Source: Planctomycetes bacterium MalM25 (GTDB lineage: Bacteria > Planctomycetota > Planctomycetia > Pirellulales > Lacipirellulaceae). Taken from it: a stretch of DNA of 64,000 nt. Under the pieces are notes generated by a model, which was not told the origin of the DNA, made no database searches, and saw only the letters and a list, made by a program, of their open reading frames with translations. The translations under genes and the position numbers were made by a program. This document shows positions 40,948 through 52,224 of this stretch, in pieces (within the stretch, counting starts at the first letter, position 1; each line of letters begins with the position of its first letter). The stretch covers positions 124,001-188,000 of the forward strand of contig CP036424.1 of NCBI GenBank assembly GCA_007745835.1. The letters are read 5' to 3'.

Positions 40948-42792
40948 ATGTCTTCCCGTGGTCTGAAACGCGTTTTCGTCGGCGAGACGAGCCTTGAGCG
41001 GAAGTGCCGCTGGTGGTTCGGCATCGCGTTAGGCGTGTTGTTGGTGCTGACCTTCTATTGGTCGGGGCAGCAACTCCGCGGGATCGTGCGGCAGAACGAC
41101 CGCGAGCTCGGACCCGGGTTGGTTGGGGCGGCATGGGACGAGCTGCACTTCGAGTACTTCCTGCAACCGACCGCGGACGAGCAAGTCGGTCTGAGCCCCG
41201 AGGAGCTCGATACGTGGAAGGGCATCATCGAATCGCTCGTCGAGAGCGGCCGGAAATTCGGCGAGGAGTTTGAGTCTTACGCGATTCAGCCGCAGGGGGT
41301 CGCTAACCCGGAAGGACTGGGCCACCCGACCAACGAGTTTGAGCAGAGTTTGCTGACCCACTACCGCCAGACCTCGCCCGAAGAGGCTCAGCCCTCTTGG
41401 TCGTACCTTAACAACAAGAAGACCTATCGCTACTACGAGGCGATGTACGCGGAGAAGTCTTGCGTGACCTGTCACAAGGTCTTGGGCAAGCCGCCCCGTC
41501 CCGGGCTCAAAGAAGGGGACCTGATGGCGGTCATGCGCGTCGAGATCGATCGAGAGGAGAAGCAGAAGGACTTCACGATGTACGAGGCCGGCATGTGGAC
41601 GGCCGCGGTGACGATCGGCTTCCTGTCGATGTTCCTGCTGTGGGCCATCGTGCGGTTGTTGATTGTGAAACCAGTAAAGCACCTCGGCCAGGTGGCCAAC
41701 GCGGTCCGTGAGGGCGACACGACCCAGCGGGCCGACATCCAGACGGGCGACGAGTTCGAGGAGCTGGCCGCCTCGTTCAACCGGATGCTCCGTCAGCTGC
41801 TGAGCCAGCAGAACGCGTTGGAGAGCGTCAACTCAGAACTCGACGGCAAGCTCGATGAGCTGGCGCAAATGAACCTGCGCCTGTTCGAGATGAACCGCCT
41901 GAAGAGCGATTTCCTCGCGACCATGAGCCACGAGCTCCGCACGCCGCTCAACAGCATCCTCGGCTTCAGCGAGGTGCTGGCGACGGTCGACACGCTCGAC
42001 CCGAAGCAGCAGCGCTACGTCGGCAACATCCAACGCAGCGGCAAGATGCTGCTCGAGATGATCAACGACATCCTCGACCTCGCGAAGATCGAATCGGGGC
42101 GCATGGACGCCTCGCCGAGCGACCTGCCGATCGCCGCGGTGATCACCGCCCAGTGCGACATGGCGCGGCCCCTGGCCGAGCGGAAGAACATCGACCTCGA
42201 CGCGAGCTGCCCCACGAACGTGCCCGCCCTCCGCCAGGACCAGGCGAAGTTGCAGCAGATCCTCAACAACCTGCTCTCCAACGCGATCAAGTTCACGCCC
42301 GAGGGGGGACGCATCCAGGTCCGCGCTCGGCGGGAGGTCGGCTCTTCGGCGAACGACTTCGACGCCGGCTCGGCGCTCGGCTCCCCGTTGCCCCCACTCA
42401 GCGGTTTGGCGGCCGGCGAGGCGACGCTGGTCATCGAGGTCGAGGACACCGGCATCGGCATCAGCGAAGCGGACCAAGCGATCATCTTCGAGAAGTTCCG
42501 CCAGGGCGCCTCGGCCGCCCCGGACGGCGACGCCATGACCCGCGAGCAAGGGGGCACCGGCCTCGGCCTCTCGATCGTCCGCGAGCTGTGCCGGTTGCTC
42601 GGGGGCGATGTCGCCGTCCGGAGCATCGCGGGCAAAGGGAGCACGTTCATCGTCCGCCTGCCGTGGCGGCTGCCCGACCGCACCGACCTCGACGCGGAGC
42701 TGAACCGCGGCGTCGCCGAGTTGACCCGCGCCCCGGCGCCCGCGTTATCGGCTCCTGGGAATCAAGAAACGATCGCCAGTCCGGGCGACTGA
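40948..42792 (+). CDS. Sensor histidine kinase with periplasmic haem-binding (DUF3365/Tll0287-like) domain
   Basis: Membrane sensor kinase of 614 residues. Order: transmembrane segment 22-40, periplasmic domain 41-213 with a c-type haem site SCVTCHK (Cys172, Cys175, His176) and RYYEAMYAEKSCVTCH typical of DUF3365, transmembrane segment 217-240, HAMP 241-295, a short coiled coil, HisKA with the phospho-acceptor His328 in FLATMSHELRTPLNSILGF, and HATPase (LSNAIKFTPEGG; EDTGIGIS; GGTGLGLSIVREL). Predicted to sense redox state, NO or O2 through haem. No response regulator gene is adjacent. It follows priA by 105 bp on the same strand but probably has its own promoter. Confidence 0.9.
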   Translation: MSSRGLKRVFVGETSLERKCRWWFGIALGVLLVLTFYWSGQQLRGIVRQNDRELGPGLVGAAWDELHFEYFLQPTADEQVGLSPEELDTWKGIIESLVESGRKFGEEFESYAIQPQGVANPEGLGHPTNEFEQSLLTHYRQTSPEEAQPSWSYLNNKKTYRYYEAMYAEKSCVTCHKVLGKPPRPGLKEGDLMAVMRVEIDREEKQKDFTMYEAGMWTAAVTIGFLSMFLLWAIVRLLIVKPVKHLGQVANAVREGDTTQRADIQTGDEFEELAASFNRMLRQLLSQQNALESVNSELDGKLDELAQMNLRLFEMNRLKSDFLATMSHELRTPLNSILGFSEVLATVDTLDPKQQRYVGNIQRSGKMLLEMINDILDLAKIESGRMDASPSDLPIAAVITAQCDMARPLAERKNIDLDASCPTNVPALRQDQAKLQQILNNLLSNAIKFTPEGGRIQVRARREVGSSANDFDAGSALGSPLPPLSGLAAGEATLVIEVEDTGIGISEADQAIIFEKFRQGASAAPDGDAMTREQGGTGLGLSIVRELCRLLGGDVAVRSIAGKGSTFIVRLPWRLPDRTDLDAELNRGVAELTRAPAPALSAPGNQETIASPGD

Positions 42793-42838: not shown

Positions 42839-45800
42839 TTACCGCCGTGGCGGCAGGGGGCGCGAGGCGTTCGGGCCGGGTTGGTACTCGACGCCGCGGA
42901 GGTCGTCGATCGAGGTGCGGCCTTGCGACAGGTAGTGCGTGATCCGCCGAGCGGTCGCCGGCGCGTAAGGCTGCGACCCGTCGGGTCGCGCCCAGAGCCG
43001 TGCGAGCTGGGAACCGCTCCCTTCGAGAACGACGCGGTCTCCCGATTGCGAGTAGCTGGCGCTGTGCGCCTCAGCGACCACGCCGCCGCCCGCTTCGCCG
43101 ACCGAGGCGTCGATCCGCACGCTCCCTAGCGCGCGCAACTCGATCGGGCCGAAGGGGGCTCCCTGCTGCGCCCCACGCGCCACCGAGGCGGCCGGGGATT
43201 CGTGGACGCGCAGCTCGTCGCAACGCAGCTCCGCCGCCCCGGGAGGAATCCCTTGCGGGGACTGGAGCGGCAGCTGCTGCTCCCAGGCGAGCACCGGCCC
43301 GTAAACCGCCTGCACGGCCCCGAGGAAGCGGATCGCGCGGTCGTTCGCGTTGCCGCCCATCGCGTTGCGGAAGTCGACTCGCAAGAACCGGAGCCCGGAC
43401 TTTTCGGAGCCATCCGCTTTGGGTTGTCCCGGGAGCCCGCCACTGGCGAGGCGGGTCGAGCGGATCGAGCCGGGCCCCTGCCCGGCGATGGCGCCGGTCC
43501 GTTGGTTGTAGGCGAGTGAGTTGAGTTTGGCGTGCTCGTGCGAGCGCTGTCCGGCCTGGTCGGTGGTGCGGTAATCGATCGTTACGCCGCCGACGCACTC
43601 GACCTCTTCAACGTCGACTGCGGAGCCGGATAGCCCGCCCCCGCCGCCGCGTAGATCGACCGGATTGGAGAGTTTGGCGGTGAGCGCGGCGCAGTGGAGC
43701 CAGCCGTTGGAGGCTTCGGCGTAAACCTCGTCGGAGAGCGTCATGAGGCTGCCATCGAACTGCATGCCGCCCCGCCAGCGGAGCGTCGCCTCGCCGCCGA
43801 GCGGCGCGGCGGGGCCGGCGGCGCGGAGCGTGAGGCGGGCGTCGCCGCGGCCTTCGGTCCAGGCACGGCCGACGGCTTGGTCGATGTGCAGGTCCTTCAC
43901 CCAGACGCGCAGCCCCTGCGATTGGATCTCCGCGAGGCCACGCAGGTCACCGGTCCCGCCCGGGTCGGCGCCCTGTTGGCCCGCGAGGGTCAGCCGTGCT
44001 CCGCCGGGCCGGTCGAGTCGATCGACGCGGAGCTGGTCGCCGAGGATCTTGAGCGGTTGCTTGGCCGGGTCGCTGGTGAGTTCGTCGATCTTCACGCCGC
44101 CGTCGCACACCAGCGCGAGGGGCGTCGCCTGGCGGCCGTGCAGGCCGACCTCGATCTGGATGTTGCGGGTGTTGAGCTCGTAAACGCTCTGCGGTTTATC
44201 GGCGCCCGGCGGTTGGAACGCGACGGTCGATCCGAGTGACGGTCCGCCCGTCTCGGCGGGCGGGGCGATGGGGCGAAGCAGCGTGGCGAGCGTGTCCGCG
44301 TGGCCCTTGATCTGTTTGCCCACGAAGTCGACCCGTCCGGTGGCGTCGATCCGCTTCGCGAGCACCGCGAGCTGCGGCCGATCCCCGCCGGTCGCCAGCT
44401 CGATCGCCGGCCCGTCGGGGCCGTCGGGTTGGACCTCTCGCAGCTGCATCGTTACGCGGTCGGCCCGCATCTTGCCCAGCCCCGTGGCGGCGAACTCGGG
44501 GCGGCCCAGGATCGTGAGCAGCGGCTGGCCGTGCGGGTCGCGGCGCATCGTTACGGCGGGGCTTCCATCCGGTAAGGCGCTCCAACGAGCTTGGTACGCG
44601 CGGCCTTGCTGGTCCGAATCGGGGGTGAAGCGGAGCCAGCCCGGCCCCGCGGCGAGCAGGTCGCCGATCGCTTGGTTCGAGTTTTCGGTCGGGGCGTCGT
44701 ACTCCAAGAGGGGCGCTTGCAGCTCACTGAGCCCTTGGGCGAGGGAGGCCGGCGTTCCCTCGATCCGCAGCCGCCGTTCGCCGAGCCACGCCTCGAGACG
44801 GGTGGCGCGGACCGCCGCTTGGCGCGTAGGCGAGTCGAGCCGAACCGGCGAGCCGATCGCCTCGACGCGGTGCGGGGTCAGGCCGCCGAGCGTGCGGCTC
44901 TGGCGGCGGGCCAGGTCGGGCTCGTGGGCTGGGTTGAGTGCCGCCGAGTCGCCCCCTTGGTCGCCGAAGTGGAGTCGCAATTCGCGGCAGTGCAGCTGGT
45001 CGCTCGGCCCCGCGGCGTTGGGCAACGTGGCGCGGACGTCGTCCTGCAGCGAAGCGACGAAGCCGGTGAAATCGAACCGGAACGGCCCCGCCGACGTGAC
45101 CTCCAGCGGGCCGCTTGCGCCGAGCGGCGCCTCGGCCGAGGCGAGCCGGACCGGGCCCTGGGGCGTGAGCACGACGCGTTCTGCGGCCGGGCCGCCCTTC
45201 TTGAACTGGCTCACGTCGATCGTCGCGCGGACTTGTTCGCGGATCTCGAGCGACTCGACGCCCGCGATCGGCAAGCCCGACGACCCGGCGCCGGTGTGTG
45301 GTTCCTTGAGCAGGCGGATCTCGAGCACCCGCCCGTGCGCCCGATGCGGACCCAGCCGCAGATCGACCGCCGCGCGGGTCCAGATCATCGATTGGTTGAA
45401 GTGCAGGTCGCTGGTGACCAAATAAAGGTCGTCCTGCGGTCCGGCCTCCTTCATGTCGCTGCGGATGACGAACTCGCCAGGCAGCTCCGCGGCGACGGGG
45501 CGGCCGAGCTTGCCGCTCGCCAAGTCGAACTCGGCGTTGAGGTCGTCGAATTGAATCGTGGTGTTGTCGGGAGCTTCGATGATGATCGCGTCGCGCGGGG
45601 GGGGGCCGTCGGGCGTGCGGGGCGTGGGGAAGGCGACCAGCAGGCACTTCGTCAGTTTCAGCCGTCCGCGATCCATCGGCTCGAAATCGTCGATCACCGC
45701 CACCACCGACGCCGGCGCGTACTCCACCACCTTCGGCGCGCCCGACAGGGCCCAGTGTCCCGCGGGGAGGTAGCTGCGGAGCATCTCCTGGTAGCGGACG

Positions 45801-45958
45801 ACGGCCCGCTTGCCGCCTCGCCAGGCGGCTTCGTCGGCCGCGTCGTATTCGCGAATGACGAGCTGCGGCTCGATCAGCGGCGCCACGCCCAACACGTACG
45901 CCTGGTACGCCACGAACGTGACGGCGAAGGCGACGGCGGCGTTGACGAGGCGTTTCAC
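42839..45958 (-). CDS. Large LptC/LptA (OstA-like) family protein
   Basis: Protein of 1039 residues with one N-terminal membrane anchor (5-27, VNAAVAFAVTFVAYQAYVLG) and the rest periplasmic. Several stretches show the alternating pattern of OstA/LptA jelly-roll strands, best near the end (AEAHSASYSQSGDRVVLEGS, then ARLWARPDG, ARRITHYLSQGRTSID) and near 385-415 (AAVRATRLEAWLGERRLRIE). LptA-family repeats in proteobacteria read similarly (ADRAxYDxxxDxLxLxG). It is preceded on the same strand by kdsD-like and kdsC-like genes, as lptC-lptA are in E. coli. So I infer an LPS-transport bridge, LptC and LptA in one chain. The family is inferred from motif and context, not certain. Confidence 0.6.
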   Translation of the reverse strand: MKRLVNAAVAFAVTFVAYQAYVLGVAPLIEPQLVIREYDAADEAAWRGGKRAVVRYQEMLRSYLPAGHWALSGAPKVVEYAPASVVAVIDDFEPMDRGRLKLTKCLLVAFPTPRTPDGPPPRDAIIIEAPDNTTIQFDDLNAEFDLASGKLGRPVAAELPGEFVIRSDMKEAGPQDDLYLVTSDLHFNQSMIWTRAAVDLRLGPHRAHGRVLEIRLLKEPHTGAGSSGLPIAGVESLEIREQVRATIDVSQFKKGGPAAERVVLTPQGPVRLASAEAPLGASGPLEVTSAGPFRFDFTGFVASLQDDVRATLPNAAGPSDQLHCRELRLHFGDQGGDSAALNPAHEPDLARRQSRTLGGLTPHRVEAIGSPVRLDSPTRQAAVRATRLEAWLGERRLRIEGTPASLAQGLSELQAPLLEYDAPTENSNQAIGDLLAAGPGWLRFTPDSDQQGRAYQARWSALPDGSPAVTMRRDPHGQPLLTILGRPEFAATGLGKMRADRVTMQLREVQPDGPDGPAIELATGGDRPQLAVLAKRIDATGRVDFVGKQIKGHADTLATLLRPIAPPAETGGPSLGSTVAFQPPGADKPQSVYELNTRNIQIEVGLHGRQATPLALVCDGGVKIDELTSDPAKQPLKILGDQLRVDRLDRPGGARLTLAGQQGADPGGTGDLRGLAEIQSQGLRVWVKDLHIDQAVGRAWTEGRGDARLTLRAAGPAAPLGGEATLRWRGGMQFDGSLMTLSDEVYAEASNGWLHCAALTAKLSNPVDLRGGGGGLSGSAVDVEEVECVGGVTIDYRTTDQAGQRSHEHAKLNSLAYNQRTGAIAGQGPGSIRSTRLASGGLPGQPKADGSEKSGLRFLRVDFRNAMGGNANDRAIRFLGAVQAVYGPVLAWEQQLPLQSPQGIPPGAAELRCDELRVHESPAASVARGAQQGAPFGPIELRALGSVRIDASVGEAGGGVVAEAHSASYSQSGDRVVLEGSGSQLARLWARPDGSQPYAPATARRITHYLSQGRTSIDDLRGVEYQPGPNASRPLPPRR

Positions 45959-46037
45959 GTTAGATGTTAAACGCGGGGTTAGCGGAGGAAGCGGAGTTGT
46001 AGAAGGCTTGCCGGTAGCTTTAACGGCCGGATAGCGG

Positions 46038-46277
46038 TTACCTCATGAAGGTCACGCCGCCGAACGTCGGCGGCGCGTCGAATCGGACGCTCCACAGCCG
46101 CTTCTCTCGCCACAACTCGCGTGTGAGCGGGAACGCCAGCTCTTCCATGTAGGCCCGTTCAAAGGAGCGAGCGGCGGGTGTCGTGGACAATTCGTAAGCC
46201 GGAAGGGCGATGCCCTCCTCGCCTGCGCAGAACGGCAGACAACTCAGGACGATCGCGATGCTCAGCAAACTCTTCAT
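46038..46277 (-). CDS. Small exported protein
   Basis: Short gene of 79 residues between kdsC and the LptC/LptA-like gene. The signal peptide (KSLLSIAIVLSCLPFCAG, 2-19) contains a Cys followed by Ala-Gly, but it does not fit a lipobox well. The mature part of about 60 residues is mixed, with FERAYMEELAFPLTRELWRE helical. I chose ATG 46277, with AGGA about eight bases upstream; that leader overlaps a repeat-like stretch (46281-46316). No known family. Position suggests the cell envelope. Confidence 0.5.
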   Translation of the reverse strand: MKSLLSIAIVLSCLPFCAGEEGIALPAYELSTTPAARSFERAYMEELAFPLTRELWREKRLWSVRFDAPPTFGGVTFMR

Positions 46278-46280
46278 AAG

Positions 46281-46316
46281 GTTTCCTTTGCGTCCTCCGC
46301 GAACTCCGCGGGTAAT
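46281..46316. repeat. Short-period GC-rich stretch resembling an intergenic repeat
   Basis: The stretch reads CCTTTGCGTCCTCCGCGAAC then TCCGCGGG, with a CGTCC/TCCGCG unit recurring about every nine bases. It is of the same style as the ATCTGCG repeat at 22721-22768. It overlaps the ribosome-binding region of the small exported gene at 46038-46277. Confidence 0.4.
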
Positions 46317-46324
46317 CCCTTGGT

Positions 46325-46828
46325 TCATCCGTGCAGCGGTCCGGTCGCCTCTTCCCACATGCCCGAATCCTTGAGTAGCTTCTCGATCACTTCTCGCAGC
46401 ACGCCGCGCCCGCCCGGCGCCGTGGTGACGTAGTCCGCGCTCTCAAGCAGCTCGGGCGCCGCGTCGGTGGGGGCGGCGCCGAAGCCGACGGCGCGGATTG
46501 TCGGTAGGTCGGGCAGGTCGTCGCCGACGTAAGCGATCTGGTCGAGCGACAGGCCGAGTTCCTTCGCGAGATTGCGAACGACCGACAGTTTCTCCTTGAC
46601 CGCTTGGTAGACGAACTCGATGTCGAGCTCGGCGCCCCGTTGTTCGACGATCTTCGAGGCCCGCCCCGTGATGATCCCGAAGCGGCCCCCGGCACGCTGC
46701 CAGAGCCGCACGCCGAGGCCGTCGCGGACGTTGAACGTCTTGGTCTCGACGCCATTGCCATCGAACGTGATGCCCCCATCGGTGAGCACCCCGTCAACGT
46801 CGGTCAGGAGGAGGGCGATGCGTTGCAT
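46325..46828 (-). CDS. kdsC: 3-deoxy-D-manno-octulosonate 8-phosphate phosphatase (KdsC-like HAD hydrolase)
   Basis: HAD-superfamily phosphatase of 167 residues that frees Kdo from Kdo-8-phosphate before its use in LPS core. The DxD motif is at LLLTDVDGVLTDGGI (Asp9, Asp11), followed by FNVRDGLGVRLWQRAG, ITGRASKIVEQRGAELDIEF and the metal motif YVGDDLPDLPTIRAVGF. Length fits the C0-type KdsC, which lacks a cap. It is 78 bp after the kdsD-like gene and 47 bp before the small exported gene, all on one strand. The other possible reading, a general HAD phosphatase, is less likely given the context. Confidence 0.88.
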   Translation of the reverse strand: MQRIALLLTDVDGVLTDGGITFDGNGVETKTFNVRDGLGVRLWQRAGGRFGIITGRASKIVEQRGAELDIEFVYQAVKEKLSVVRNLAKELGLSLDQIAYVGDDLPDLPTIRAVGFGAAPTDAAPELLESADYVTTAPGGRGVLREVIEKLLKDSGMWEEATGPLHG

Positions 46829-46861
46829 CGAGTAAGGCGGTAGGCGGAAGGCGGTAAGGAC

Positions 46862-46911
46862 GGTGAGTCCCCCGACGTCAGTCAGGGGAGATGAGTCAAC
46901 AACGACTCACC
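46862..46911. repeat. Nested inverted repeat between kdsD-like and kdsC genes
   Basis: Outer arms GGTGAGTC (46862-46869) and GACTCACC (46904-46911) enclose an inner imperfect hairpin CCCCCGACgtcaGTCAGGGG (46869-46888). A second small hairpin, GAGTCaacaacGACTC, uses the right arm. The TGA stop of the kdsD-like gene (46907-46909) lies inside the right outer arm. Confidence 0.75.
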
Positions 46912-48010
46912 CCGCCGCGTAGGCGTCTTCGTTCGGGAAGATCCGCATCGGGGGCTTGGCGGGCTGCGGGGCGGCGGCGGGAGCGTCGTTCGCTTCCCGG
47001 GCGACGACATCGGTCACATCGACCAAGCCGATCGGTCGACCCGTGACATCGACTACCGGCAGCTCGCTGAACTTGCGGTCCGCCAGGAGACCGACCGCCT
47101 CGCTCATACGGACGTCGGGCGTGATCGTGACCGGGTCGCGGACCATGATCTGGTCGATCGGTCCGTCGAGCGCCGCGGCGTCGTGGGATTCGAGCAGCTT
47201 CGCGAGGTCGCTGTCGGTGAAAAGGCCGGTCAGCTTGCCCTCCGCATCGACCAGCATGACGGCGCCGGTGCGGCGGCCCGGCTTGCTGCAGGCGACCAGC
47301 ACCTCGCGGACCGACTGCGTCGCTTCGGACACACGGCATTCGGCGAGCGGTCGCATCTCGTCCTCGACGCGGGCCAACTTGCGACCGAGCGAACCGCCCG
47401 GGTGGAACTTCGCGAAGTCCTCGGCGCGGAAGCCGCGGATGGAGCTCAGGACCAGGGCGAGCGCGTCGCCGATAGCGAGCATGGCGGTCGTGCTCGTGCT
47501 GGGCGCGAGGCCGAGCGAGCACGCCTCGTCGAGGCTCCCCAGCGGGAGGACCACTTCGGCGGCGCGGCCGACCGTGCTCTGGGTGGTGGCGGTGATCGCG
47601 AGGATCGGGGCGCCAAAGCTGCGGAGGCTCGGCAGCAGTTGGATGACCTCGCCCGTTTCGCCGCTCTGCGAGAGCATCAGCACGAGGTCGCCCCGCCCGA
47701 CGCGGCCCAGGTCGCCGTGGAACGCTTCGGCGGGGTGCAGGAAGTGGCTCGGCTGGCCGGTGCTGGCGAGCGTCGCGGCGATCTTCTGGCCGATCAGCCC
47801 CGCCTTGCCCATGCCGGTGACGATCACCGAGCCGCGGCAGGTTTCGAGCAGCTCGATCGCGTCAGCGAACTCGTCGCCGAGTTGCTGCGAGAGCTTCCAG
47901 AGGGCGATCGCCTCGAGGCGCATCACTTCGCGCGCCGCGGCGATCCGTTGGGGCGTGGGCAGCGCGTCGCGCGGGGGCGCGTCGCTGCGCGCAGCGGGTT
48001 GTGCGCTCAT
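46907..48010 (-). CDS. kdsD: Arabinose-5-phosphate isomerase (KpsF/GutQ/KdsD family)
   Basis: Converts ribulose 5-phosphate to arabinose 5-phosphate, the first step to Kdo, in the cytoplasm. The 367-residue protein has an SIS domain (about 55-190: VIVTGMGKAGLIGQKIAATL, FLHPAEAFHGDLGRV, LMLSQSGETGEV) and a pair of CBS domains after residue 225 (TGAVMLVDAEGKLTGLFTDS; FSELPVVDVTGRPIGLVDVT). Family length is about 330; the extra residues are an Ala/Pro-rich N-terminus and a tail. Next to kdsC in the same direction, which supports the Kdo role. The stop lies in an inverted repeat. Confidence 0.9.
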   Translation of the reverse strand: MSAQPAARSDAPPRDALPTPQRIAAAREVMRLEAIALWKLSQQLGDEFADAIELLETCRGSVIVTGMGKAGLIGQKIAATLASTGQPSHFLHPAEAFHGDLGRVGRGDLVLMLSQSGETGEVIQLLPSLRSFGAPILAITATTQSTVGRAAEVVLPLGSLDEACSLGLAPSTSTTAMLAIGDALALVLSSIRGFRAEDFAKFHPGGSLGRKLARVEDEMRPLAECRVSEATQSVREVLVACSKPGRRTGAVMLVDAEGKLTGLFTDSDLAKLLESHDAAALDGPIDQIMVRDPVTITPDVRMSEAVGLLADRKFSELPVVDVTGRPIGLVDVTDVVAREANDAPAAAPQPAKPPMRIFPNEDAYAAG

Positions 48011-48135: not shown

Positions 48136-51100
48136 CTACTCGGCTTCGTCCTCAGGCTCGTCGGTGAGCTGACGCTGAGTCGCTTCCCAAGAGAGCTGCG
48201 TCTGCTCGATCCGGCGGAGCGGGTCGTTGGACGAGTCAGCGCCGCGGCGGCGCTTGCGCTGTTGCTCGTCGGCTTCCGACTCGAGCGCTTCGACCCAGTC
48301 GGGTAGATCGAGCCCCGAGCCGGCGGCGTCGCCCAGCAGGGAGTTGACCTCGCGGCGGAGCGCGGAGAAGGCCTCGCTCGCTTCGATCCGGGGGTCGGTC
48401 CCCATCGCCGGACCGACGAGCGAACGGACCAGGTCGATCGTCAGGGGGCGGACGAACCGCTCGGCGAGCCGCTGCGAAACGGTCGGTAGGCGCATGCCGT
48501 AACGCTGCGTGAGCGCTTCGAGCCCCGCCTGGTGCTGGTCGGCCGCTTCGCAGGTCCGCTCCTCAACCGCACGGCGCCAGAGCGCGGCGGCGGCGGGGCG
48601 GCCGCTCTTCACGAGGATGCGGTGGGCGAGCGCCACCGGCTTCAGGTTCCAGGCGACCCGGTCGTAAGCGTTCTTGAGCCTCAAGAAGTCGATCAACGCG
48701 TGCAGCATCTCGCCGTGGTCGGACTGCGTGGTGGTCGCGTTGTAATCGCGGTAGATCGGGTAGTTTTCGACGACCGCCTCGATGGCGATCGACAGCAACC
48801 GGACCGCCTCGTCGCGCGGCACGCCCGCGTCGATCTCCTCGATCAACTTCGGCGCGTCTTGGGGCGGGTCTTCGCACAGGTTGTCGAGCCACACGCCGAC
48901 GCGTTGGTGCAAGATCGCCCGCAGGTTGCTGAGCGTGAGAAAACGTTGCGTGAACAGATCCTCGCCGTACCGCTCGACGAAGCGGACGAAGCGTTCCCAT
49001 TCGCGCGAGTCTTGCAGCCGTTCGACCACGCTCAGGCGGACCGTCTTGCTGTGGCCGAGCCAGCGGCCCAACTCGGTCTCGGTCAGGTCCTGCAGGGCTT
49101 CGACCAGCATCACGTCGGCGGCGTGGGCGTCGTCCTCGGCGCGGCCCCAGGTTGGGGAAGACTCGACGAGGCACTGCACGATGGCCGCGTAGCCCGCCTC
49201 GAACAGGCGGTCGTATTCCGTGACGGCGCCGCGGCCGACCGGGTGGTCGGTCTCCATCTGTTGCGCGACGCCGAGCAGCTCGGTCGTCTCGCGGATGAGT
49301 CCCAGACGCGGGAACCAACCGAGCAGGTCGCTGATCAGCCGGTGCAGCGCGCGGGCGCGGACGATCTTGCGGGGCTCGCCGCCGCGACCGATCGGAACGT
49401 ACAGCAACTCCTCGCTCGCCAGCGCGGTGCGGAGTTGCGGCCAATGCTCGCGGACACCCGCCGTGTCGCCCCGCAGAACCGATCGCAGCACCCCCACCGC
49501 GGCGCCGACGGCGCGGGGCGTAAACGGCGAGTCGTCGTCGGCCAGGGCGCCGCTCGCCGCGCGGAGCAGGCGAGCCGCGTCGGCCACCTCGACGCACGAC
49601 GTGATCACGCCCTCAAGGATGGCGTCCTTGATCGTCCGCACCTGGTCGTACTCGACCATCGACTCGTGGTCGCCGTCCGGAGGCTGCAAGCGGTGCGTAT
49701 GGATCGTTTCGAGCAGTTGTGCGAGCTGCACACCACGCCGGACGGCCATCTTACGCCACGCGGCGATGGTCTCCTCGCGGCCGCCGGGCGAGGCGACGCG
49801 GACACCCCAAACCACGGCGGCGTGCTTCCACAGCCGCGATACGGTGTTCAGGAACGAGAGTCGCGACTCCAGGCGTTCGGCCTCATCCTCGAACTCAAGA
49901 CGCGTTTCGTCGCTGTCCGGCTCGTACATGGCCGAGTCGATGCCGTCGTCGGTCGTGTCCTCGTAGGTCATGTCGTCGTAGGCGGCGTCGAACAGGCCGA
50001 ACTCGTCGTCCTCCTCGTCGTCGAACGGCGCTTCGGGATCGAAGTCGCCCTCCCCTGCATCCTCAAAGCCGAGCGACTCCTCTTCTTCGTCGATGTCGTC
50101 CTCGAGCAGCTCGTCGAAGAGGGCGTCGTCGTGGACCTTGCCGAGCTCGAACTTCGGCGCGTCCCACAGCTCCTCGGCGTTCGCTTCGAGGTGGTCGAAG
50201 AACTTGGCGACCAGCGGCCACTGGTCCTCGCCCGTCTCTTCGCCGCGCTTCTCCACCAGCCGCAACCAGCGCTCGGCGAGCGGGTGGAACGACGCGTCGC
50301 CGTCGTCGAGCGGCGTGAGATCGACCTGGCAGACCCAGCGCATCAGCAGCGCCATCGAAGCGACCAAGTCGCCCTTCTCGAGCAGCGCCTCGACGACCTG
50401 CTGGAACGCCTTGGGCGAGTCGAACTGATCAACGAACATGCCCCAGAAGCCGATGTCGCCCGAGGCGGCGCCCGCCTTGTGCCAGGCGTTGAGGGCGCCG
50501 GCGACGAGGTTCGTCGAGACCTCGATCTCCTTCGCCAACAAGCGACGCACGCCGCTCACCATCGGCGTGGCGAACTGGTCCCACCAGATGGCGATCCGCT
50601 CCAGCGTGCTGGAGAAGAAACGCTCGTACTCGGCGTCATCGATGGCGGCCGCCTCGCTCCAGCCGCGGGCGCAGAGCCCGAGCAGCTGCTCGACGACCTG
50701 GATCAGGTCGTCGACGCGGTAGTCGTGGATCGTGTTCTCGATCGACGGGAACAGGCTGTAGTTGCCGCCGAAGCCGACAATGTTCCACGGATCAACCAGG
50801 GCGCCGCACTCGATGCCCCGTTCGAGCAAATCCTCGATCTCGGGCGTCAGCTCGGCGGCGAGGGCGAGCTCGTGGCCGTCGATCGCTTGGTGGCCGGCGG
50901 TCAGCTTGCAGTAGATCTTGCACAAGATCCGCGACGAGGCGACGCGGACCTCGTTCGCCTGCTCGAGCGCCGCCTCCGAAGCGCCCATGCGGGCGTACAC
51001 GCGGGCAAGCCGTACGCGCTGGAGCTGCTCCGCCCGCCGGCGGGCGATGGCGTGGTTCAGGTGCTGCCGCGCGCCGGCGAACGGCTGGCGGAGCCGTTCC

Positions 51101-52224
51101 GCCTCGCGCCGCAGGCGCTCGCCGTGGTCGCCGGTCATGCGGGCGAGCAGGTCGGCGTAGAAGCGGTCGCGGTAGGCAGCGATCTGTGGCAACAGGATCG
51201 ACAGCGTGTCGTCCCCGCTGTGGGCGGTCGGCCCCGCACCGCTGACGCCCGACGCCATCAGGATCGTGCCCGCGAGCACCGCGGCCGCCTCGTCGAGCAG
51301 CTCGTCGCGAGCGTAGCTGCCGTCGGGGCGATCGCCCGACTCCTGTTCGACCCGTTCGCATAACGCGTTGAGGACCACCGGCTGCAGCACGAAGCGGCGG
51401 TACATGCCGCTGCCGTCGATCCGGTTGGGGTCCCAAAGGCCGAAGTGATGGTTCGGGCGTTTGTGTGCGGGGTGATCGAAGTCGTACGCGCGGGGGTCGA
51501 GCGCGAGTTCCTCAAGCAGTTCGGGATCGAAGTGCGCGGCGCGGAGGATGCCGGGCTCGGTGTTGCGCAGCAGGTCGAGCGTCCGTTCGAGCAGCCGCTT
51601 CCGACGCCCGACACCCACGCCCGAGGCGCCGTTCTGCCGCGCGGCCGCGACGTACAGCGGGATCGGGCGCACCCACTCGTGACGGTACGGCTCGATCTTC
51701 TGATCGGTCTCCAGAACGGCGATCGGGCGGTAGCCGATGTAGTCGTCCAGGCGGTCGCGGGCGGTGTTCAGCGCCGCCTCGTCCCACGGCGCGCCCTGGG
51801 TCAGCAGCGCCTCGAAGACCCGCCCTAAGAACAACGGCCGCCACAGCTCCTGCGGTTCGCGACCCCACAACAGGTCGGCGTGGAAACGCCCGTACGCTTG
51901 CCGGAACTGGCCCGTTAGCCGCAGCACGCCGAGAGCCTGCTCGGCGTCGGCGAACGGGGCGCCTGCGGCCCGCAATTCTTCGAGCCGCTTGCTCAGTCCC
52001 GCCAGCACACGATCAACCGAGGGCCGGTCCCCTGAGGGGCCCTCTTCCTCGATCTCGAACAGCTCATTAATCGCGCCGAGGAACGCGCCGTCGGTCGCCC
52101 CGGAGGAGAAGTTCAGGTAGCCCAGAACCTCGCGCTCGAGCTTCGCTCGCCTCTCGCCGGTCCCCAGCGGGCTCGCTGGTGGGCCGTCGCCATGCTCCCG
52201 CGGATCATTGGCTTCGGTCGACAT
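48136..52224 (-). CDS. Very large protein of unknown function with an acidic insert
   Basis: Cytoplasmic-looking protein of 1362 residues that I cannot assign to a family. No signal peptide and no membrane span. Most of it is alpha-helical with even spacing of Leu/Ala/Trp, like an alpha-solenoid. A strongly acidic, probably disordered insert lies near residues 700-785 (DDIDEEEESLGFED ... FDDEEDDEFGLFD). The extreme C-terminus is basic then mixed (DEQQRKRRRGADSSND). No nucleotide-binding, metal or catalytic motif is evident. Codon use is uniform and the frame uninterrupted for 4.1 kb. It lies 125 bp upstream of the kdsD-like gene on the same strand, and may be in one transcript with the Kdo/LPS genes. 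Confidence 0.75.
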   Translation of the reverse strand: MSTEANDPREHGDGPPASPLGTGERRAKLEREVLGYLNFSSGATDGAFLGAINELFEIEEEGPSGDRPSVDRVLAGLSKRLEELRAAGAPFADAEQALGVLRLTGQFRQAYGRFHADLLWGREPQELWRPLFLGRVFEALLTQGAPWDEAALNTARDRLDDYIGYRPIAVLETDQKIEPYRHEWVRPIPLYVAAARQNGASGVGVGRRKRLLERTLDLLRNTEPGILRAAHFDPELLEELALDPRAYDFDHPAHKRPNHHFGLWDPNRIDGSGMYRRFVLQPVVLNALCERVEQESGDRPDGSYARDELLDEAAAVLAGTILMASGVSGAGPTAHSGDDTLSILLPQIAAYRDRFYADLLARMTGDHGERLRREAERLRQPFAGARQHLNHAIARRRAEQLQRVRLARVYARMGASEAALEQANEVRVASSRILCKIYCKLTAGHQAIDGHELALAAELTPEIEDLLERGIECGALVDPWNIVGFGGNYSLFPSIENTIHDYRVDDLIQVVEQLLGLCARGWSEAAAIDDAEYERFFSSTLERIAIWWDQFATPMVSGVRRLLAKEIEVSTNLVAGALNAWHKAGAASGDIGFWGMFVDQFDSPKAFQQVVEALLEKGDLVASMALLMRWVCQVDLTPLDDGDASFHPLAERWLRLVEKRGEETGEDQWPLVAKFFDHLEANAEELWDAPKFELGKVHDDALFDELLEDDIDEEEESLGFEDAGEGDFDPEAPFDDEEDDEFGLFDAAYDDMTYEDTTDDGIDSAMYEPDSDETRLEFEDEAERLESRLSFLNTVSRLWKHAAVVWGVRVASPGGREETIAAWRKMAVRRGVQLAQLLETIHTHRLQPPDGDHESMVEYDQVRTIKDAILEGVITSCVEVADAARLLRAASGALADDDSPFTPRAVGAAVGVLRSVLRGDTAGVREHWPQLRTALASEELLYVPIGRGGEPRKIVRARALHRLISDLLGWFPRLGLIRETTELLGVAQQMETDHPVGRGAVTEYDRLFEAGYAAIVQCLVESSPTWGRAEDDAHAADVMLVEALQDLTETELGRWLGHSKTVRLSVVERLQDSREWERFVRFVERYGEDLFTQRFLTLSNLRAILHQRVGVWLDNLCEDPPQDAPKLIEEIDAGVPRDEAVRLLSIAIEAVVENYPIYRDYNATTTQSDHGEMLHALIDFLRLKNAYDRVAWNLKPVALAHRILVKSGRPAAAALWRRAVEERTCEAADQHQAGLEALTQRYGMRLPTVSQRLAERFVRPLTIDLVRSLVGPAMGTDPRIEASEAFSALRREVNSLLGDAAGSGLDLPDWVEALESEADEQQRKRRRGADSSNDPLRRIEQTQLSWEATQRQLTDEPEDEAE

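Follow-up and report, generated by a model that had tools for sequence, protein, structure and literature searches.

The window analysed here, a 64,000-nucleotide stretch of the genome of Planctomycetes bacterium MalM25 (contig CP036424.1, positions 124,001 to 188,000; the genome is 4.72 Mb in one contig), was found to encode a large protein of 1039 amino acids (window positions 42839–45958, minus strand, GTG start). With a probability of roughly 0.82, this protein constitutes the periplasmic portion of the lipopolysaccharide (LPS) transport (Lpt) system in the form of one chain, replacing LptC and the LptA monomers. The assignment draws on the open reading frame (ORF), an N-terminal anchor, Pfam, a profile comparison with PDB sequences and the predicted fold. 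A fusion of LptC with several LptA-type jelly rolls had been put forward in the original prediction, which was made from the DNA sequence alone, and is now supported by LptA homology, an Lpt-type fold, internal repeats, missing stand-alone genes and a distant relative (L188) described below.

The sole Pfam match of the protein at E ≤ 1 is to the LptD_N/LptA family (PF03968; residues 907–982, E = 0.015). The stretch AEAHSASYSQSGDRVVLEGS, which had been singled out as resembling OstA/LptA, falls within this match, the score of which is below the family cut-off. When the window protein was considered together with 26 orthologues (n = 27), LptD_N was matched in 21 sequences and LptC in four (Pfam, E ≤ 0.1), with no further Pfam family appearing; an AsmA/TamB-type or barrel protein was rejected on the basis of this table. 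A profile of the 27 sequences returned nine matches at E ≤ 1 among all PDB sequences, of which eight are LptA, covering three separate stretches of the query (~349–417, ~701–745 and ~936–964), and the ninth is FabG (E = 0.45). PF03968 was above cut-off in 17 genomes of a set of 59, which includes MalM25 (not one of the 17); judged by their position, 14 of the matches fall within the orthologue, and the other three are in frames of 1054–1154 amino acids that may be LptD.

The whole-chain AlphaFold model, obtained from a 16-sequence alignment (predicted local distance difference test (pLDDT) 72.5, predicted template modelling score (pTM) 0.57), has a helix at residues 2–25, a second helix at 43–61 and then mostly strands up to residue 1020, with 62 strand segments; the row of strands is placed at about residues 76–1020. 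Residues 356–772 modelled alone gave a pLDDT of 83.8 and a pTM of 0.81. A C-terminal LptA-like jelly roll (residues 856–1026; 42881–43393, minus strand), which contains the LptD_N match, aligned in the whole-chain model with Escherichia coli LptA (2r1a_B; VIA-align Z 13.6, root-mean-square deviation (rmsd) 2.4, 123 of 134 residues aligned), and residues 821–1018 aligned with LptC (6mjp_C; Z 11.4, rmsd 3.8, 137 aligned). The 356–772 model provides two internal rolls. The LptA-like one at residues ~590–751 (43706–44191, minus strand) was matched to LptA 2r1a_C by model residues 235–396 (Z 11.3, rmsd 2.6, 120 aligned) and to LptC by model residues 237–398 (Z 10.5, rmsd 3.7, 118 aligned). For the other, at residues ~378–549 (44312–44827, minus strand), model residues 23–194 matched LptH 4uu4 (Z 9.8, rmsd 3.5, 127 aligned), and model residues 5–259 matched 4q35_A (Z 11.9, rmsd 3.7, 153 aligned), which we take to be LptD; the first 23 VIA-align rows for this model are all Lpt proteins, 4q35 counted in. 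In the N-terminal half of the whole-chain model, a jelly roll at residues ~177–420 (44699–45430, minus strand) overlaps the ~378–549 roll and fits residues 88–248 of LptD 7omm_A (Z 10.2, rmsd 3.7, 155 aligned).

Three rolls (~378–549, ~590–751 and 856–1026) and a fourth, overlapping match (177–420) are therefore directly supported in the predicted structures. As ~945 residues are available at ~150 per roll, the chain is suggested to hold five to six, and we infer those above four. Stacked beta-jelly rolls had been anticipated, and residues 177–1026 are indeed best matched in the models by the jelly rolls of LptA, LptC and LptD. In Foldseek the longest matches of the model are LptD chains, and Rhs/teneurin-type repeats were also returned at low E with a probability of ≤0.33. 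Because an hhalign self-comparison of the whole family profile gave no match, repeats were examined with non-overlapping 150-residue tiles of this profile (55 pairs), with reversed tiles as a control. Thirteen of the 55 pairs reached a probability of ≥50 (nine reached ≥80), all in tiles from residue 226 onward, compared with 0 of 55 reversed pairs (best 6.2).

A single N-terminal anchor had also been claimed, and hydropathy agrees. The protein has one hydrophobic N-terminal stretch (mean Kyte-Doolittle value of 1.79 at residue 7, with a later maximum of 1.19), and in all 27 family sequences hydropathy peaks close to the N-terminus (1.51–2.39). One membrane anchor at residues ~2–25, as in LptC, is accordingly predicted from sequence. 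We infer that the N-terminal domain is LptC, a region in which the sequence match is weak and the model confidence low.

Further support came from distant planctomycete homologues. Twenty loci of distant genomes were picked for PF03968 matches and are not a random sample; kdsD was found upstream on the same strand in 17, kdsC in 17 and at least one of the two in all 20, and the family profile recognises the kds-neighbouring protein in 19/20. At five loci of family f50 and in genome G157 (L187–L191, L193) a protein of 641–664 amino acids lies directly behind kdsD-kdsC in each case (6/6). A Pfam scan of eight proteins (seven distant chains and the LptD candidate of MalM25) placed L188, L190 and L193, all from the short-chain group, above cut-off for LptC near the N-terminus and for LptD_N in three stretches. 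L192 was also above cut-off for both families, with an internal LptC match (417–496), while L199 passes LptD_N and L206 is barely above the LptC cut-off (21.4 vs 21). In L188 (655 amino acids) the NCBIfam models for LptC (TIGR04409, 70.6 bits vs a cut-off of 38) and LptA (TIGR03002, 82.3 vs 71.7, three stretches) both recognise the same chain. The six short chains were linked to the window family by profile-profile comparison (95.5, 95.0 and 93.0%; reversed control 0.1%). Like the window protein they have kdsD-kdsC in front, with an LptC-like domain followed by LptA-like domains in the three scanned; they differ from it in being shorter (LptC and three LptA stretches) and in still being recognised by curated models. 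Position, anchor and domain order point to a predicted arrangement of LptC followed by LptA rolls.

The recognised ORFs measure 641–664 amino acids in f50 and G157, 983–1086 in f21, 1069–1344 in f74 and 1291–1363 in f73, and for some of the long ones the start may have been placed too far upstream. Judged from these predicted ORFs, bridge length varies by lineage, from about 640 to 1360 amino acids. At L188, L190 and L193 the bridge gene is followed by genes for a glycerophosphodiester phosphodiesterase-like exported protein and a siroheme-type methyltransferase (names read from sequence).

Within the window, the bridge gene follows two genes of 3-deoxy-D-manno-octulosonic acid (Kdo) synthesis and a small ORF, all four on the minus strand. 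The kdsD/kpsF gene (46907–48010, minus strand) encodes an arabinose-5-phosphate isomerase of 367 amino acids with SIS and CBS domains (NCBIfam TIGR00393, KpsF/GutQ; 256.4 bits vs a cut-off of 203.7), and kdsC (46325–46828, minus strand) a Kdo-8-phosphate phosphatase of 167 amino acids (TIGR01670, YrbI/KdsC; 155.6 bits vs 106.95). Between kdsC and the bridge gene lies a gene for a small protein of 79 amino acids (46038–46277, minus strand), identified by ORF and motif, the exported form of which begins at ATG 46277 and ends at 46038. The spacings are 78, 47 and 79 bases, so that the run of four genes with short gaps originally described stands, with every gap under 80 bases. In E. coli the order is kdsD-kdsC-lptC-lptA-lptB. 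The next gene downstream in the window, for a histidine kinase (40948–42792; Tll0287-like, HAMP, HisKA and HATPase domains in Pfam), is convergent with the bridge gene, which is therefore not succeeded by lptA or lptB. Upstream of kdsD, 48136–52224 encodes a 1362-amino-acid protein with no Pfam match above cut-off.

Orthologue neighbourhoods were fetched for 38 of the 57 other genomes of the 59-genome set having an orthologue match. The original prediction asked whether homologues keep the kdsD-kdsC order, and they do: kdsD precedes the bridge gene on its strand in 38/38 and kdsC in 36/38. A chance run of genes was rejected, the order being conserved across the taxonomic order in these 38 loci. 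No kdsC was detected in the fetched region of two close relatives (L039 and L041), where kdsD still adjoins the bridge gene; the same was observed at all three f21 loci (L202–L204). At L050 the kdsD-containing ORF is 1402 amino acids long, owing to a fusion or to a misassigned start. The small exported protein is fast evolving. Past its start codon it has no Pfam match, and its gene has no tblastn match across the 38 orthologue loci. Small exported proteins occupy the same gap between kdsC and the bridge gene in L034, L035, L037, L042, L043, L046, L047 and L049; a shared motif was recovered by motif search in 7/38 loci, with L034 recognised by eye. Some of these proteins have an 'FPxT'-like stretch in common and several end in GG(I/V/L)xxxR-like residues.

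The orthologue is widespread. It was identified in 58/59 genomes (MalM25 included), the exception being an assembly of 82% completeness. A class-wide sample of 118 genomes (MalM25 included) gave 117 with an orthologue, and the one without (G239) is 92% complete. Among 118 genomes sampled from the phylum, the family profile matched 27 at E ≤ 0.001, the matches beyond the class being weak, and left 71 unmatched; PF03968 was above cut-off in 23. Seven f50 genomes are among these 23, with the matches in frames of 652–669 amino acids, and six of the seven hold two or three separate LptA matches there. A one-chain bridge seems to be present in much of the phylum Planctomycetota.

The partners of such a bridge, LptB, LptF, LptG and a candidate LptD, appear from sequence comparison to be encoded in the genome. 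The original prediction noted no lptB at the locus, in agreement with its position at 426297–427001 of the genome (319.6 bits vs a cut-off of 240), ~260 kb from the bridge gene on the same contig. It is followed by a DnaJ-like gene (read from sequence), lpxD (above cut-off) and an lpxI-like gene (117.6 vs 400). Two LptF/LptG-type permease genes are above the PF03739 cut-off. The LptD candidate (1064 amino acids, L116:5576–8770) is clearly related to candidates in four other genomes (phmmer, E of 1.1e-231 or better), and the candidate of G046 is above the PF04453 cut-off once neighbouring matches are added (25.6 vs 22.4). Across the 59 genomes, PF04453 was matched in 26 at E ≤ 0.1, one of them above cut-off; at the same E ≤ 0.1, LptD_2 (PF19838) was matched in none.

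Separate, complete lptA and lptC genes in the genome would have refuted the original prediction; no stand-alone copy was found with PF06835, PF03968 or the family profiles. LptC (PF06835) gave a match at E ≤ 1 in 9/59 genomes and above cut-off in none. At E ≤ 1, PF03968 matched in the MalM25 genome the large protein and one weak site only (G000:C1:4479680, inside a 921-amino-acid ORF). In the neighbourhoods of lptB (MalM25 and six relatives), lptF, lptG and lptD, the distant-chain profile recognised no ORF at E ≤ 1 and the window-family profile only two chance-level ORFs (E = 0.19 and 0.9). The genome therefore appears to have no detectable stand-alone LptA or LptC, divergent copies being conceivable.

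Several observations weigh against the one-chain interpretation. Of the two Pfam families named in the original prediction, PF03968 was matched by the 1039-residue protein below threshold (16 bits vs a cut-off of 20.4), whereas PF06835 gave no match at E ≤ 1 anywhere in the MalM25 genome. An NCBIfam scan of the protein returned nothing at E ≤ 1, and one of the orthologue L071 nothing at E ≤ 1e-5. Residues 1–75 and parts of 76–250 are of low confidence in the AlphaFold model; the best LptC structural matches fall in the C-terminal and middle parts of the chain and not at its N-terminus, and the LptC domain of the distant chains alone did not match the window family (probability 1.7%). Pfam returned nothing at E ≤ 0.1 for L194, one of the long relatives, and L193 and L192 pass LptC but narrowly miss TIGR03002 (69.4 and 71.3 vs 71.7). 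The distant-chain profile found matches at E ≤ 1 in 1/19 genomes (E = 0.002, to the orthologue of that genome), and because of this the short chains are linked to the window family by comparison of the two profiles, by the reverse search and by gene position. Among the partners, both LptF/LptG-type genes fall under the NCBIfam LptF and LptG equivalog cut-offs, and the LptD candidate of MalM25 is weak by itself (PF04453, E = 0.038).

Other explanations were considered in the light of these data. The protein might form a partial bridge, made of LptC and some rolls, which needs a further, undetected LptA or end-to-end self-assembly to reach LptD. A divergent small protein can escape profile searches, and a small exported gene does lie between kdsC and the bridge gene; however, the profile searches of the Lpt partner neighbourhoods and of the whole genome with PF03968 yielded just the chance-level ORFs and the single weak site noted above, and the small gene is without tblastn match in the other loci and shares its motif with few of them, making this explanation unlikely. 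It is quite unlikely that a long LptA-type bridge serves another lipid (a phospholipid or other surface lipid) and not LPS. Groove proteins carry several lipids, but kdsD and kdsC precede the gene at nearly all orthologue loci and kds genes recur at the distant-family loci, while the genome has LptB beside lpxD and the lpxI-like gene, LptF/LptG-type permeases and an LptD candidate; the profile searches revealed nothing else in it that could stand in for LptA and LptC.

A second LptD, or another outer-membrane beta protein, was suggested by the LptD chains among the longest Foldseek matches and by barrels among the lower VIA-align rows. The close fit is nevertheless to the N-terminal jelly roll of LptD (7omm 88–248, 4q35 62–229) and not to its barrel. 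The chain is moreover anchored at its N-terminus, and the genome has an LptD candidate of its own; this very improbable alternative was rejected on these grounds.

If the protein is indeed a one-chain Lpt bridge, its N-terminal helix would hold it in the inner membrane and its first jelly roll would take a lipid A-type glycolipid from LptB2FG in the manner of LptC. If export works as in E. coli, the glycolipid would be driven by LptB2FG into this roll and onward to LptD along the groove. Some five to six LptA-type rolls would line up to make this greasy groove continuous from one side of the periplasm to the other, and the final roll would dock on the jelly roll at the N-terminus of LptD. The gene, rather than assembly, would determine how many rolls the bridge has. 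LPS is the presumed cargo, and docking at both ends and a constant bridge length in the cell would likewise be expected. At a strand spacing of 0.48 nm, 62 strands in two sheets would give the chain alone a very approximate length of ~15 nm. It has been reported that LptF/G, LptC, one LptA and LptD together measure ~16 nm, in a periplasm of 21 nm (PMC5575297). This figure would correspond to ~4 nm per roll, and five to six rolls with those of LptF/G and LptD might, as a rough estimate, extend over 28–32 nm.

The arrangement resembles the LptC-LptA bridge of E. coli in having kdsD and kdsC upstream, a single N-terminal anchor, jelly rolls of LptA/LptC type and the partners LptB, LptF, LptG and LptD. 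It differs in that E. coli has LptC and separate LptA monomers, whereas the planctomycete has a single chain with perhaps five or six rolls, with lptB distant from the bridge gene unlike in the E. coli locus. A comparable solution is described for the elongated MlaD of Veillonella parvula, where one inner-membrane protein spans the periplasm and replaces separate carriers, although this protein has an MCE domain and an outer-membrane barrel and handles phospholipids (PMC10665443). In diderm Firmicutes, two OstA-domain proteins of ~200 amino acids have been proposed as LptA and LptC on the basis of these domains, but these are encoded by separate genes (PMC5007114).

LptD has been reported in planctomycetes, in a paper whose main text does not mention LptA or LptC (PMC3422733). 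A 2022 survey describes the planctomycete Lpt system as 'largely reduced', with profiles made from groups in which E. coli sequences are present (PMC8871954); the one-chain protein offers a probable explanation for this verdict. No one-chain LptC-LptA bridge was reported in the literature titles and abstracts searched, a search with preprints and most subscription papers outside its scope.

It may tentatively be proposed, at somewhat short of even odds, that the LPS bridge across much or all of the Planctomycetota is a single gene-encoded ruler, with a roll number fixed by lineage (~650 amino acids in one family, ~1000–1100 in the order of MalM25 and up to ~1360 in another family of the class) and matched to periplasm width, so that LPS would be exported only where the membranes lie at that distance. 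A covalent chain, if true, would settle the roll count for these bacteria. The planctomycete periplasm is described as variable and capable of being greatly enlarged (PMC5394234), and a bridge of fixed length in such cells would constitute a natural test.

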